Source: Alphaproteobacteria bacterium (GTDB taxonomy: Bacteria; Pseudomonadota; Alphaproteobacteria; UBA9219; RGZA01). From it: a DNA stretch of 50,321 bases. The stretch covers positions 1 through 50,321 of the forward strand of contig JANQEX010000033.1 in the NCBI GenBank assembly GCA_028278105.1, given 5' to 3'. The notes under the pieces were generated by a model. That model was given only the letters and a program-made list of their open reading frames with translations. It was not told the origin of the DNA and did no database searches. A program made the translations under genes and the position numbers. This document shows positions 1 to 50,321 of the stretch, in pieces; position 1 is the stretch's first letter; each line of letters opens with the position of its first letter.

Positions 1-140
1 GGGGCAGGCTCCAGCCGAGGGTCCAGCATGAAGCCGGAGGCTTCATGCAACCGCCTTCGGCGGTTGCTGGATTCCGGCTTTCGCCGGAATGAGCAGTTAT
101 CTGTTTGGTTTGATTCATTTCTAATTGAGTTCAGACCCTA
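1..140. repeat. Right part of a family-B MITE, cut by the window edge
   Basis: This is the right part of repeat family B. It holds stem-loops around CCGGAGG and CCTTCGG, then the conserved tail GAGCAGTTATCTGTTTGG and the terminal inverted repeat ending CAGACCC-TA. The terminal TA is followed at once by the right end of family A, so B sits inside an A element. The same composite, seen from its left side, closes the window at 49857-50321. No gene lies here. Confidence 0.8.
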
Positions 141-2495: not shown

Positions 2496-2658
2496 TAGGT
2501 TCAACGGACAATTACCAACACGAACATTCCCGCGAAAGCGGGAATCCCATTTATCTTCAAAAACAAACTGGATTCCGGGTCGCGGTTGCTGCGCAACCTT
2601 GCCCGGAATGTTCATTTAGTCTTTTTAATGATTTAAGTTCAATTGTCCATTGGCCCTA
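2496..2658. repeat. Family-A MITE between ppiD and trpE
   Basis: A complete A copy fills the gap between the two genes. The terminal inverted repeats start TA-GGTTCAACGGACAATTA and end with a diverged AATTGTCCATTGGCCC-TA. The core holds the palindrome CATTCCCGCGAAAGCGGGAAT and the conserved block GGGTCGCGGTTGCTGC. The right-hand CTA is the complement of the TAG stop of ppiD, and the left end lies 29 nt before the trpE start. Any trpE promoter must therefore lie in or beyond this element. Confidence 0.85.
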
Positions 2659-5550: not shown

Positions 5551-5761
5551 TAGGGTCTGGACTCAGTTAAGCAGGTTTTTCATTCAAAAAAACAACTGCT
5601 CACCCTGGCCCCGGCTTTCGCCGGGGTAAACTCCAGCCGGGGTCCAGCATGTTGCCTTCGGCAACATGCAACCGCCTTCGGCGGTTGCTGGATTCCGGCA
5701 TGCGCCGGAATGAGCAGCTATCTGTTTGGTTTGATTCATTTCTGATTGAACCCAGACCCTA
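5551..5761. repeat. Complete family-B MITE between tpiA and folK
   Basis: This is the clearest B copy without nested modules, 211 bp. It starts TA-GGGTCTGGACTCAGTTA and ends TGATTGAACCCAGACCC-TA. The interior is a series of stem-loops: CCCCGGC/GCCGGGG, CATGTTGCC/GGCAACATG, CAACCGCC/GGCGGTTG inside TCCAGC/GCTGGA, and TTCCGGC/GCCGGAA. The right-hand TA forms part of the folK stop codon (TAG read leftwards). Confidence 0.88.
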
Positions 5762-6388: not shown

Positions 6389-6607
6389 GTCTCAGTTTGA
6401 AAAACATCATGCCCGCGAAGGCGGGCATCCCATTGTTTTCAATTAAATGGGACCCCTGCCGGAGCCTGTCCCCGCCCCCGCTTCCCCGCTACACCTTCGG
6501 CTACGCAGGGCGAGCTTGCAAAATGGCCCGGCGTAGCTTTAGCGAAGACGGGTCGCGGGGGTAAACTCCAGCGGGGGCGGGCATGTTTGCCGAGAGGTCA
6601 AACTGAC
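6389..6607. repeat. Composite palindromic repeat (family I with nested C module)
   Basis: The 471-bp gap before rodA is mostly repeat. The outer ends read GTCTCAGTTTGA on the left and TCAAACTGAC on the right, an imperfect terminal inverted repeat. Inside are CATGCCCGCGAAGGCGGGCAT, then CCCCGCCCCCGCTTCC, a reverse-oriented C module (6481-6560) and GGGGGCGGGCATG. From 6608 to 6733 I see no feature beyond the leader of rodA. Confidence 0.6.
6481..6560 (-). repeat. C module, reverse orientation
   Basis: About 80 bp made of two hairpins: GCAGGG/CCCTGC around a CTTCGG tract, and GCCCGGCG/CGGGTCG around GTAGCTTTAGCGAAG. It lies inside repeat I. Other copies are at 9371, 20611, 23701 and 49891. Confidence 0.75.
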
Positions 6608-9258: not shown

Positions 9259-9370
9259 TTGGGCCCTTTTCAAAGGTCTCTTCCCTTGGCTTGGCAAAAC
9301 CGGTTCGCCGTCATTGCGAGCCCTGCCGTGGCGGGGCGAAGCAATCCAGGATTTGATATATCAGGCGTCC

Positions 9371-9453
9371 CCGCGACCCGTCTTCGCTAAAGCTACGCCG
9401 GGCCTGTTTGCAAGCTTGCCCTGCGAAACCGAAGGCGAAGCAGGGAAGCGGGG
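9371..9453 (+). repeat. C module
   Basis: Two-hairpin unit with CGACCCGTCTTCGCTAAAGC, CTACGCCGGGCC and CCCTGCGAAACCGAAGGCG, flanked by GTCCCCGC on the left and GCGGGGAC on the right. It occupies the loop of the surrounding palindrome. Confidence 0.75.
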
Positions 9454-9533
9454 ACCCAGTTTGTTTAAAATAAAACTAGGCCCCCGCTTTCGCGGGGGCG
9501 CCTGAGTTTGTGGTGACTACCGGGTCCGGCCCA

Positions 9534-9608
9534 TCCGCCTCCGCAGGCTTCGGCGCGACGGGTACGCCAAGACCTCGGCGGTGCCGCAAGGCGAAGCCGG
9601 GCGCGGGG
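9534..9608 (+). repeat. D module
   Basis: About 75 bp with CGCCTCCGCAGGCTTCGGCG, ACGCCAAGACCTCGGCG and GGCGAAGCCGGGCGCG. It is one of five copies; the others are at 21170, 23550 (reverse), 41352 (reverse) and 50203. Confidence 0.75.
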
Positions 9609-9724
9609 ACGCCTGATAATACCAAATCTTGGATTGTTTCATTCCGCTTTCAGCGCAGCTCATAGATGACGCCCGTAGAAAACGCTTTACATAAACCCGT
9701 CTTTCTTATCCTCTGCAACCGACC

Positions 9725-15119: not shown

Positions 15120-15304
15120 TAGGTTCAATGGACAATGACCAACACGAACATTCCCGCCCCCGCTTGCGCGGGGGCAGGCTCCAGCGGGAATCCCATTTAT
15201 CTTCAAAAACAAACGGGATTCCGGGTCGCGGTTGCTGCGCAACCTTGCCCGGAATGTTCGTTTAGTCTTTTCAATGACTTGAGTTTAATTGTCCATTGAA
15301 CCTA
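15120..15304. repeat. Complete family-A MITE between gcvH and gcvPA
   Basis: This is the reference A copy, 185 bp with TA at both ends. The terminal repeats are GGTTCAATGGACAAT... and AATTGTCCATTGAACC. Inside are CATTCCCGC, a CCCCCGCTTGCGCGGGGG insert with GGCTCCAG, GCGGGAATCCC, and the block GGGTCGCGGTTGCTGC. It lies inside what is usually a continuous gcv transcription unit. Confidence 0.88.
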
Positions 15305-19801: not shown

Positions 19802-20767
19802 TTACCCCGCCCCGTAGCTCTTCACCAGCGAGCCGACCACCAGATACCAGCCGTCCACCAGCACGAAGAAAATAATCTTGAACGGCAGGGAGATGACCGA
19901 GGGCGGCAGCATCATCATGCCCATGGCCATCAGGATGGACGCCACCACCATGTCGATAATCAGAAAAGGAAGGAACAGCAGGAAGCCGATCTCGAACGCG
20001 CGGCGCAGTTCCGAAATCATGAAGGCCGGGATCAGCACCTGCAACGGCAGGTCCTGAATCCTGGTGTTTTCCGGCAATTTGGCGATATCGGTGAAAAGGC
20101 GCAGGTCGCGGTCGCGGGTATGGCGCATCATGAAGGCGCGGAAGGGCTCCACCGTTTTCGAAAACGCCTCTTTCTCGCTGATCTTCTGCTCCATATAGGG
20201 GCCGAGGCCCTCCTCATAGGCCTTCTGAAAGGTGGGCGCCATGATGAAGAAGGTGAGAAACAGGGCCAGGCTCACCAGCACCATGTTCGGCGGGGTTTGC
20301 TGGACGCCGAGCGCGGTGCGCAGCAGGCTGAGCGACACGACGATGCGCACGAACGACGTGACCATCATCAGAATGGACGGCGCCAGCGACAGCACCGTGA
20401 TCAGCCCCAGCATCTGGATGATCCGGGCGCTGACGCCACCATCCTCCCCGCCGGTGATGTTCAGCGAGAGGTTCTGCGCCAGCGCCGGCGGCGCGGCCAG
20501 AACGCCCGCGGCGCAGAAAAGCGCGGCAAGGAACAGCCTGAGCCAAAACCGGCGCGGGCACGGGACCGATGCACAGCCCGCCGCAAGTTTACCAATCACT
20601 CCAGGCGTCCCCGCACCCCGTCTTCGCCAAGGCTGCGCCGGGCCATTTTGCAAACGCGCCCTGCGAAGCCGAAGGCGTGGCAGGGAAGCGGGGACTCCGC
20701 CGCGTCGAAACAAGGCGCGGGCATGCCTGCCGGTTCTTTTGAAAAGGGCCATAACGGGAAAGATCAT
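19802..20767 (-). CDS. fliP: Flagellar export apparatus protein FliP, with repeat-encoded N-terminal extension
   Basis: FliP forms the core of the flagellar type III export gate. The C-terminal 220 residues are typical: APSILMMVTSFVRIVVSLSL, FLTFFIMAPTF, QDLPLQVLIPAFMISELRRAF and LPPSVISLPFKIIFFVL. A signal peptide (FLAALFCAAGVLAAPPALAQ, about 79-98) precedes it. The ATG at 20767 overlaps the fliO stop as ATGA, with GAAGAG upstream, so it is the natural start. Residues about 13-56 are then encoded by an inserted palindromic repeat (20602-20729). An alternative GTG at 20599 gives a normal 265-aa protein but has a poor ribosome-binding site. Confidence 0.9.
   Translation of the reverse strand: MIFPVMALFKRTGRHARALFRRGGVPASLPRLRLRRARLQNGPAQPWRRRGAGTPGVIGKLAAGCASVPCPRRFWLRLFLAALFCAAGVLAAPPALAQNLSLNITGGEDGGVSARIIQMLGLITVLSLAPSILMMVTSFVRIVVSLSLLRTALGVQQTPPNMVLVSLALFLTFFIMAPTFQKAYEEGLGPYMEQKISEKEAFSKTVEPFRAFMMRHTRDRDLRLFTDIAKLPENTRIQDLPLQVLIPAFMISELRRAFEIGFLLFLPFLIIDMVVASILMAMGMMMLPPSVISLPFKIIFFVLVDGWYLVVGSLVKSYGAG
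20602..20729. repeat. E element with nested C module inside the fliP 5' region
   Basis: The outer arms are CAGGCGTCCCCGC and GCGGGCATGCCTG. Between them are a C module (20611-20694) and CCGCGTCGAAACAAGGCG. The leftward frame stays open across the whole element and joins the fliO-coupled ATG to the FliP signal peptide. The element is thus either an in-frame coding insertion or has moved the fliP start downstream. Confidence 0.75.
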
Positions 20768-21106: not shown

Positions 21107-21250
21107 ATATGCACATTCCCGCGCAAGCGGGAATCCCATTGTATTTCAATAAATGGGACTCTCGCTTTTCCGCCTCCGCAAGCTTCGGCGTGACGAAGAG
21201 GCAAAACCTCGGCGTCGCCGCAGGCGAAGCCGGGCGCGGGAGTGTTCGGG
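21107..21250. repeat. Palindromic repeat with nested D module before fliO
   Basis: CACATTCCCGCGCAAGCGGGAATCCCATT is followed by AATGGGACTCTCGC, a D module at 21170-21240, and GCGGGAGTGTT. It fills much of the 314-bp gap between the helical flagellar ORF and fliO. The rest of the gap holds a decayed K array (21308-21358, with GGACCCTTTCGACCC and TGACCCTTTA). Confidence 0.65.
21170..21240 (+). repeat. D module
   Basis: Copy with CGCCTCCGCAAGCTTCGGCG, AAAACCTCGGCGTCGCCG and GGCGAAGCCGGGCGCG. It sits in the loop of a larger palindrome. Confidence 0.7.
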
Positions 21251-23549: not shown

Positions 23550-23620
23550 GCCCGGCTTCGCCTTCGGCTACGCCGAGGTCTTGGCGCATCCGTCACGCCG
23601 AAGCTTTGCGGAGGCGGAGA
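23550..23620 (-). repeat. D module, reverse orientation
   Basis: GCCCGGCTTCGCCTTCGG, ACGCCGAGGTCTTGGCG and CACGCCGAAGC, the complement of the forward copies. It is nested in a B element. Confidence 0.72.
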
Positions 23621-23700: not shown

Positions 23701-23780
23701 CGACCCGGCTTCGCTAAAGCTACGCCGGGCCGTTTTGCAAGCTCGCCCTGCGTAGCCGAAGGCGAAGCCGGGGAGCAGGG
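23701..23780 (+). repeat. C module
   Basis: CGACCCGGCTTCGCTAAAGC, CTACGCCGGGCC, TTTTGCAAGCTCGCCCTGCG and GCCGAAGGCGAAGC. It is nested in the same B element as the D module upstream. Confidence 0.72.
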
Positions 23781-29364: not shown

Positions 29365-29482
29365 CACAGGCGTCCCCGCGCAAGCGGGGACCCAGTGTTA
29401 TTGTTAAACTGGATTCCCGCTGGAGTTTACACCCGCCCCCGCTTTCGCGGGGGTGAACTCCAGCGGGGGCGGGAATGCCTGT
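29365..29482. repeat. E element between priA and the transaldolase gene
   Basis: Outer arms ACAGGC...GCCTGT. Inside are CGTCCCCGCGCAAGCGGGGAC, CCAGTGTTATTGTTAAACTGG, CCCGCTGGAGTTTACACC and CCCCCGCTTTCGCGGGGG, giving nested stems. It occupies about half of the 231-bp divergent gap. Confidence 0.7.
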
Positions 29483-37869: not shown

Positions 37870-38005
37870 TCATGCCCGCGAAGGCGGGCATCCACGCTTT
37901 ATGTCTGCGTCATTACTTGGTGGAGTAAAACTATCTTTTCACTGTTCCTTTTTGTATCGTGGGGTTGAGGCAAAATTCGTGGATGCCCGCCTGCGCGGGC
38001 ATGAC
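37870..38005. repeat. Family-F palindrome between fabD and fabG
   Basis: TCATGCCCGCGAAGGCGGGC-ATCCACG on the left and CGTGGATGCCCGCCTGCGCGGGC-ATGA on the right. The left arm starts right after the fabD TAG stop. About 80 nt of AT-rich sequence separates the arms. Confidence 0.72.
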
Positions 38006-38037
38006 GTGAATGAAACAGCTATACCGAAAGAGAACCC

Positions 38038-41285: not shown

Positions 41286-41484
41286 TGTCATTGCGAGCCC
41301 CGCCATCTGCGGGGCGAAGCAATCCAGGATTTGATATTATCAAGCGTCCCCGCGCCCGGCTTCGCCTGCGGCTCCACCGGGGTCTCGGCGCACCCGTCGC
41401 GCCGAAGCTTGCGGAACGCGGAAAAGCAGGGACGGGAATGCCTGGAGATGTGGATTGCTTCGTCGCTTCGCTCCTCGCAATGAC
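41286..41484. repeat. H palindrome with nested E arm and D module
   Basis: GTCATTGCGAGCCC...GCAATCCAGGATTTG opens and GTGGATTGCTTCG...CTCCTCGCAATGAC closes. Between them are AGCGTCCCCGCG, a reverse D module (41352-41425) and CAGGGACGGGAATGCCTGG. It fills over half the gap before pntAA. The remaining 144 bp show no feature. Confidence 0.75.
41352..41425 (-). repeat. D module, reverse orientation
   Basis: GCGCCCGGCTTCGCCTGCGG, GGGTCTCGGCGCACCC and GCGCCGAAGCTTGCGG. It is in the loop of the H palindrome. Confidence 0.7.
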
Positions 41485-49859: not shown

Positions 49860-49890
49860 GTTCAATGGACAATTACCAACACGGACATTC

Positions 49891-49971
49891 CCGCGACCCG
49901 GCTACGCTAAAGCTACGCCGGGCCCTTTTGCAAGTGCGCCCTGCGTAGCCGAAGGCGAAGCAGGGAAGCGG
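49891..49971 (+). repeat. C module
   Basis: CGCGACCCGGCTACGCTAAAG, CTACGCCGGGCC and CCCTGCGTAGCCGAAGGCG. It replaces the short GAAA-type loop found in the plain A copy at 2496. Confidence 0.75.
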
Positions 49972-50202
49972 GAATCCCGTTTTATTATTCGAACAATAAA
50001 CAAATGGGATTCCGGGTCGCGGTTGCTGCGCAACCTTGCCCGGAATGTTCATTTAGGGTCTGGACTCAATTAAGCAGGTTTTTTATTCGAAAAAACAACT
50101 TCTCACCCCGGCCCCGGTTTTCACCGGGGCAGGCTCCAGCCGGGGTCCAGCATGAAGCCGGAGGCTTCATGCAACCGCCTTCGGCGGTTGCTGGATTCCG
50201 GC

Positions 50203-50272
50203 TTCTCCGCCTCCGCAAGCTTCGGCGCGACGGGTGCGCCAAGACCTCGGCGTAGCCGAAGGCGAAGCCGGG
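50203..50272 (+). repeat. D module
   Basis: CTCCGCCTCCGCAAGCTTCG, GCGCCAAGACCTCGGCG and GAAGGCGAAGCCGGGCG. It interrupts the TTCCGGC/GCCGGAA stem-loop of the B element; the copy at window start lacks it. Confidence 0.75.
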
Positions 50273-50321
50273 CGCCGGAATGAGCAGTTATCTGTTTGGT
50301 TTGATTCATTTCTAATTGAGT

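Follow-up and report, generated by a model that had tools for sequence, protein, structure and literature searches.

The CGTC-tagged REPs defined by Di Nocera et al. in 2013, which include dRS3 of Neisseria and RPE-4 and RPE-6 of Rickettsia, occur without a linked transposase, and those of Bradyrhizobium (CGTC-1) have unusual loops (PMC3733652). The same report places REP dimers inside palindromes in Anabaena variabilis, Thermomicrobium roseum and Halothiobacillus neapolitanus. REPINs, known together with RAYTs, are high-copy, non-autonomous elements of about 70 nt whose two hairpins can also fold as one long hairpin, and they are randomly distributed in extragenic DNA (PMC3116915). Members of the IS200/IS605 family carry hairpins at their ends and lack terminal inverted repeats; they enter DNA on the 3' side of a specific tetra- or pentanucleotide without target duplication, and ends-only derivatives (PATEs) can be moved in trans (PMC7290912). 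Four full insertion sequences with a transposase (IS1397, ISKpn1, IS621 and ISPsy8) insert in REP palindromes, ISPsy8 exactly at the symmetry axis of the hairpin and with a 3-bp direct repeat (PMC1525189). Finally, short palindromes often inserted within one another are described in Volvox organelles (PMC2670323), and fungal mitochondria contain double-hairpin elements of suspected mobility.

The window, i.e. the whole stretch of DNA analysed here, is one entire contig (C56, 50,321 bases); the draft genome to which it belongs comprises 2.05 Mb in 119 contigs. It holds five copies each of two modules, C and D, within palindrome loops of several kinds. Genome-wide, at least 40 copies of C and at least 40 of D are present, copies at contig ends being lost from such a draft. 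The copies in the window, and hosts that are empty or hold a third module, E, are as follows.

9377..9445, + strand: C in host H (GTCCCCGC/GCGGGGAC); left arm 9367-9374, loop GA 9375-9376, loop AA 9446-9447, right arm 9448-9455
9534..9601, + strand: D, 68 nt; host H (CGCGGGGACGCC) forms the right flank, with a degraded or chimeric left arm
20617..20685, + strand: C variant in a GTCCCCGC/GCGGGGAC palindrome
23704..23772, + strand: C in a CCCTGC/GCAGGG palindrome
49897..49965, + strand: C in host A; ATTCCCGC 49887-49894, loop GA^AA, GCGGGAAT 49968-49975
6484..6552, - strand: C in a CCCCCGC/GCGGGGG palindrome
50206..50272, + strand: D, 67 nt, in host B; ATTCCGGC 50195-50202, loop TTC^C, GCCGGAAT 50274-50281
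23551..23618, - strand: D in host B, junction TTC^C as at 50206
41355..41421, - strand: D in a GTCCCTGC/GCGGGGAC palindrome with one T-G pair; the arms hold
21169..21234, + strand: D in a ACTCTCGC/GCGGGAGT palindrome with one T-G pair; the arms hold
29372-29391: empty host H, GTCCCCGC-GCAA-GCGGGGAC
2525..2545, + strand: empty host A, CATTCCCGC-GAAA-GCGGGAAT
70..90, + strand: empty host B, GATTCCGGC-TTTC-GCCGGAAT
5691..5711, + strand: empty host B with a different tip, GGCATGCGCC
37983..38006, - strand: empty CGTC-tagged REP (family definition in PMC3733652), CGTC-ATGCCCGC-GCAG-GCGGGCAT
15142..15198, + strand: host A with module E in its loop; E is the 26-nt insert CCCCGCTTGCGCGGGGGCAGGCTCCA, 15158-15183

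These coordinates bear out a preliminary description of this DNA, which had placed five C and five D copies inside the loops of different palindromes. The sizes of about 80 and 70 bp given there become 69 and 67-68 nt, and the C copy at 23704, assigned there to host B, lies in a CCTGC..GCAGG palindrome. That the host arms remain intact holds for most copies, including those at 21169 and 41355 with one G-T pair each, but not for the copy at 9534, whose left arm keeps about five of eight pairs. The D copy at 21169 was missing from the earlier list. Many contigs of the genome end inside C, D or their hosts (C56 at 50321, C93, C55, C8, C4 and C32), from which we conclude that the assembly is broken at these repeats.

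Both modules are gene-free, with an overall size range of 66-73 nt, and each consists of a hairpin 1, a short linker and a hairpin 2, in agreement with the earlier view that they are built of hairpins. Module C (69 nt) reads CCCGGCTTCGCTAAAGCTACGCCGGGC..linker..GCCCTGCGTAGCCGAAGGCGAAGCAGGG, with outer ends CCCG..CAGGG, and module D (67-68 nt) reads TCCGCC..GCCGGG; the two ends of the element resemble each other over about 6 bp only. As in REPINs, two REP-like hairpins stand in inverted order, and their mutual complementarity allows C to fold as a single long hairpin on top of the host stem. The C copy at 49897-49965 folds better than 200 shuffled sequences (z about -5), with values for C of -5.0 as DNA and -5.6 as RNA, while the folds of D (z -2.1) and of a three-layer case (z -1.2) are less distinctive. 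The motif GTAG lies within the stem of hairpin 2 (GGCGTAGC..), and no unpaired end tag is present at the foot of the stem. A search of Rfam returned no match to the element above the gathering score, its sole match being an unrelated tRNA in another stretch (L103), and a known structured RNA family was ruled out as its identity. The innermost tips of both module hairpins vary yet stay complementary (CCGAAGG, CCGCAGG, CTTTAG, CCGCCAGG and CCCTTGGG, for instance in 49897-49965 and 50206-50272); such tips could be read as a still smaller hairpin in a G^GAA loop, representing either another level of nesting or selection for complementary tips.

In a 400-kb sample, arms of at least six consecutive pairs flank 10 of 18 C copies and 11 of 29 D copies, as against 0.06% of random sites at equal spacing. 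A naive binomial calculation gives p of about 1e-28 for each module, a value to be read with the knowledge that copies within one host family are not independent. With a looser count, at least eight of ten pairs are found at 18 of 32 full-length copies versus 1.6%. The sample comprised the window and 20 further stretches, the latter picked for lying on contigs with matches, and the copy density derived from it is biased accordingly; a de novo inverted-repeat scan gave thousands of chance GC-rich pairs and was left out of the statistics. The location of the modules in palindrome loops is not due to chance.

Within this genome, the empty form of a host can be set against its filled copies. Empty host A reads ATTCCCGC-GAAA-GCGGGAAT, or has GGAA as its loop (n=9). 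With its outer flanks conserved, the filled host has one of three inserts: C, giving GA[69 nt]AA; D, on the opposite strand, giving G[67 nt]AAA; or the smaller hairpin E. Empty host B reads GGC-TTTC/TTCC/TTGC-GCC (n=8, two with other tips), and its filled form is TTN[D]C (n=17). The module is the sole difference between the empty and filled copies of one host, and not a single target base is duplicated. The layering is real as well, since D lies inside E inside A at three places (L069 13341, L084 14019 and L075 2197), in keeping with the nested layers that had been proposed.

The hosts of C fall into at least five sequence types, and those of D into as many. Their loops measure 4-5 nt, and the palindromes themselves are of several unrelated kinds, with arms that are mostly still paired; the arms of the CCCTCCC/GGGAGGG host have almost nothing in common with those of other hosts. 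The hosts share little beyond a pyrimidine loop on a stem. Elsewhere in the genome a CGTC-tagged REP carries C (L083 7097-7163 and L070 8274). The CGTC/TGTC tag and CCA tail are lacking in hosts A and B, which follow GAAC and CTGG, respectively. In a minority of copies the arms are degraded, chimeric or lost. Four D copies (L069 2101, L075 967, L081 2250 and 9534 in the window) have a left arm from one host and a right arm from another, reflecting recombination inside D or misassembly.

When read from the strand of hairpin 1, nearly all C copies lie between CTT or CCT and TC, and nearly all D copies between CTTN and C. The insertion points of the two modules are thus one base apart, CTT^ for C and CTTN^ for D. 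Hairpin 1 starts with TCCGCC, CCGCC or CCCTGC, and the element ends with GCCGGG before the remainder of the loop. A module reversed with respect to the loop never occurs in the table of junctions. The two arms mirror each other, which leaves the loop as the sole asymmetry in the target, and it must therefore be the loop that sets the orientation. A hairpin and a CTT loop go together at every well-kept copy, so that targeting by structure and targeting by sequence are not separable at these sites. The alignment of hosts with and without modules, suggested in the preliminary description, hence gave an equal junction in almost all copies; neither junctions placed at random nor modules frequent outside palindromes, either of which would have spoken against targeted insertion, were observed, apart from the minority with degraded, chimeric or lost arms.

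Such a picture could also arise if each module had entered one host only once, with the diversity of hosts produced by amplification and divergence of a few composites. Host A holds mostly one subfamily of C, and host labels on the C tree are more clustered than in any of 200 shuffles, as this reading would predict. The best module trees nevertheless need at least 13 host changes for C and at least 18 for D; built on 69 columns and poorly supported, they provide indications of host switching. More tellingly, unrelated hosts contain identical modules. Two D copies, one in host B (L042) and one in host A (L062), are identical at 68 of 68 nt in unrelated flanks, and each keeps the loop base of its own host, TTC in B and TTT in A. 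These identical copies, along with the orthologous empty sites and independent gains in Bradyrhizobium described below, largely refute a single entry, which we regard as highly improbable.

Among 59 relatives searched, full-length C and D were found in this species only. A related double hairpin (TCCGCC..GGCGGA, a linker and CCCGGCGTAGC..GCCGGG) is present inside the tips of other palindromes in a metagenome-assembled genome (MAG) of a congener. A search for the two-hairpin pattern over about 85,000 species genomes returned this congener, many Bradyrhizobium and two further MAGs, one from Xanthobacteraceae and the other also alphaproteobacterial. All nameable matches to the element outside the genus belong to Alphaproteobacteria. 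The pattern was unmatched in viral contigs, and BLAST returned nothing from plasmids or phages; carriage by a phage or plasmid was rejected on these grounds. The two complete Bradyrhizobium chromosomes with full matches hold 1-4 elements per genome.

Bradyrhizobium copies are mostly found in TGTC-ATGCCCCGG-CTTG[67 nt]A-CCGGGGCAT-CCAGTA, and their hosts, for example TGTC-ATGCCCCGG-CTTGA-CCGGGGCAT-CCA, have the make-up of a CGTC-tagged REP: a CGTC/TGTC tag, an 8-9 bp stem starting with AT, a 4-5 nt loop and a CCA tail. Because the tag, a stem length of 8-9 bp and a CCA-like tail were preconditions of the host scan, its own contribution lies in the loop length and in the frequency of the pattern. 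At the loci examined, the left and right hairpins are oppositely oriented, as in head-to-head dimers.

We placed the short gene flanks of nine filled loci in 41 Bradyrhizobium genomes and compared the neighbouring DNA. In B. vignae (L172), the locus downstream of a response-regulator gene is filled, reading CTTG[67 nt]A, whereas five Bradyrhizobium species aligned with it have a CTTGA-type loop in matching flanks. The empty form is ATGCCCCGG-CTTGA-CCGGGGCAT, and the arms are intact in the filled one. The flanks of L172 recur in L248, L254, L255 and L257 together with the same REP dimer, whose left hairpin has an empty CTTGA loop, with imperfect arms in L254. Since L248 also shares the dimer spacer with L172 (GGATGTG.CAAG.GCGAG.TCTTCAACGCCGG), the two represent the same insertion site. 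At this locus, two further stretches have empty loops of other sequence (CGTGA and AAAG in L250 and L260), both hairpins of the dimer are filled in L249, and the whole repeat is absent from L264. At three further loci the filled state is likewise the rarer one, with empty orthologs (L230 and L235 among the stretches compared). Filled being the minority state at four loci, the direction of change is insertion. As judged from these alignments, an element of 66-67 nt was gained at the tip of a palindrome, with arms and flanks left intact, at CTT^GA or CTTG^A, the G being ambiguous. The targeted insertion into hairpin loops suggested earlier is thereby supported in two ways, by empty and filled hosts that differ by exactly one module, and by this gain of a 67-nt relative.

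The dihydroorotase locus was set aside, as it is not a clean pair of empty and filled sites, the presence and orientation of the repeat differing between species, and no clean empty ortholog was found for the VOC-family locus (L177). The REP dimer at the L172 locus is present, degraded, partly deleted or absent across species (L254, L264, L263 and others), which suggests mobility, or easy loss, of the host repeats too. In L291 (Bradyrhizobium G090), a GTCATTGCGAG-type repeat is interrupted by an insert of one hairpin, CGCCTTCGCCTAGGCTTCGGCGGACAAGTC, whereas the orthologs L285 and L290 have the repeat unbroken; the insert may be a one-hairpin relative, for which these orthologs provide the empty site. 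Downstream of an L183-type flank in L241 (Bradyrhizobium G099), the loop of a CGTC-REP holds an unrelated perfect palindrome, TGCGCAATTGCGCA, and these loops would accordingly receive other inserts too. Finally, among the empty tips at the same Bradyrhizobium locus, the closing pair and loop change together (GC-GAAA-GC, GC-GCAG-GC and GG-CTTGA-CC) above a constant outer stem, as if REP tips were swapped as cassettes.

The Bradyrhizobium data also bear on the concern that the nested structures are an artefact of assembling repeat-rich metagenome contigs. Several contigs, that of the window included, do end inside repeats, and a few copies have chimeric arms; the same structure is seen in isolate genomes, on long chromosome contigs (L249, 8.6 Mb; L248, 8.4 Mb), and in a separate MAG. 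An artefact can accordingly be given hardly any weight.

The search for an enzyme took in three families: Y1, RVT_1 and IS110. Y1 (PF01797) had no match in this genome, in the congener or in five of the 15 Bradyrhizobium genomes that carry the element, and a RAYT, which the preliminary description had suggested looking for, was dismissed as the mover because the Y1 gene is missing where it would be needed. RVT_1 and IS110 (PF02371) were unmatched in this genome and the congener, draft assemblies being able to lose such genes. Group II or other reverse transcriptases and IS110 were rejected as movers on this basis.

The strong RNA fold (z -5.6), the fixed strand orientation and the lack of target duplication would suit an element that is transcribed, folded and copied into hairpin loops by a reverse transcriptase or by a step resembling reverse splicing. 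Elhai et al. (2008) reportedly proposed RNA intermediates for small nested repeats of cyanobacteria. With no RVT_1 match in this genome or the congener, no poly-A or other trace at the copies and no match to an Rfam family, we consider such RNA-mediated spread very unlikely.

The main rival requires no transposase at all. Template switching or short-patch gene conversion might copy the centre of a donor hairpin, module included, into a recipient hairpin. In yeast, template switching between the arms of inverted repeats homogenises the arms and inverts the spacers (PMC8604942). An exchange of tips would sit well with the few closing bases that the hosts have in common (GC..GC), with empty tips that vary at the same loci as if swapped (GAAA, GCAG, AAAG and CTTGA), with the chimeric arms of some D copies and with the failure to find an enzyme of the three families searched. 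It accounts poorly for junctions that are constant to the base and never spread into the arms. Furthermore, the identical D copies in hosts A and B retain the loop base and closing pairs of each host, hosts of the CCCTCCC/GGGAGGG type share almost no arm sequence with the others, and a fixed orientation relative to the loop is no obvious outcome of such an exchange. We therefore judge tip exchange to be unlikely, if a good deal less so than spread through RNA.

The observations that any explanation has to accommodate are the precise gain in the loop, the absence of target duplication, the fixed orientation, the several unrelated hosts, the identical copies across hosts and the nesting in three layers. 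In our reading, C and D are probably non-autonomous elements, similar to REPINs and PATEs, that enter hairpin loops in the form of a folded single strand, through an enzyme supplied in trans. Insertion is precise and takes place in the 4-5 nt loops of small palindromic repeats, which are in many cases CGTC-tagged REPs; the element would travel with both of its hairpins formed. Its target may be a loop exposed when a palindrome is extruded or single-stranded. Such an extruded loop is where unpaired DNA would naturally be expected, and we infer for this reason that the target is single-stranded when used. The enzyme would act in trans, in the manner of that which moves ends-only elements of the IS200/IS605 type and REPINs. 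Afterwards, a host with its module may be copied as one unit, giving rise to the many A plus C and B plus D copies. What speaks against this reading is the lack of a match in the three enzyme families and the shift of the insertion point by one base from C to D.

By analogy, then, the element would work like IS200/IS605 elements and their ends-only derivatives; we word this as likeness, because membership fails on the enzyme, no Y1 gene being present. With PATEs it has in common a hairpin at each end, the lack of DDE-type terminal inverted repeats and of target duplication, and a fixed left-flank motif and orientation, but PATE ends match a full tnpA element, whereas this genome and the congener yielded no Y1 transposase and no full-length element related to C or D. 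The resemblance to REPINs extends to size, the two hairpins, the fold as one long hairpin, the dependence on other functions for movement and the high copy number; REPINs, however, are not found in hairpin loops and have an unpaired GTAG end tag, whereas here GTAG lies inside a stem, and RAYT/Y1 genes are lacking in this genome and the congener. In contrast to IS1397, ISKpn1, IS621 and ISPsy8, C and D possess neither a transposase nor a direct repeat. The 15-30 bp terminal inverted repeats of a classical DDE MITE are absent, and the empty and filled sites show no target duplication.

The CGTC-tagged REPs resemble the Bradyrhizobium hosts and some of the hosts here in tag, stem, loop, CCA tail and head-to-head dimers, but the paper that defines them describes neither a conserved 67-69 nt double hairpin in the loop nor empty and filled orthologs (PMC3733652). 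In the three cases of REP dimers mentioned at the outset, small palindromic elements lie regularly within larger palindromes, as they do here; there, the insert is a REP with one type of target in each case, whereas C and D each enter several families of host, their junction and orientation are fixed, and empty sites exist. Organelle palindromic repeats are AT-rich and unrelated in sequence to C and D, and the available part of the literature on them reports no fixed loop junction. Among the open-licence papers searched, none was found on nested loop insertion by one double-hairpin element into several palindrome families with a fixed junction and orthologous empty sites. Loop insertions of related kinds being already known, what appears to be new from these sequence comparisons is a single conserved double hairpin that enters several families of palindromes at a fixed loop junction and has orthologous empty sites.

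A bolder proposal, which we put forward tentatively as a possibility, is that Alphaproteobacteria possess a new strand-specific, structure-guided machinery that puts a folded double hairpin into the loop of an extruded hairpin, without RAYT/Y1, IS110 or reverse transcriptases, nested palindromes growing layer by layer as a result. Since the junctions are exact to the base and the orientation is fixed, the mobilising activity is testable in culturable Bradyrhizobium.

All orders of Alphaproteobacteria have CGTC-tagged REPs, with no enzyme linked to them, and a second, smaller element is now seen to land in their loops. This offers a concrete route by which nested palindromes of bacteria may grow from the inside out; such nesting has been described for organelle genomes, with no mechanism given. 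Should it be the hairpin, and not its sequence, that is targeted, such insertions would mark the sites at which palindromes extrude in living cells.
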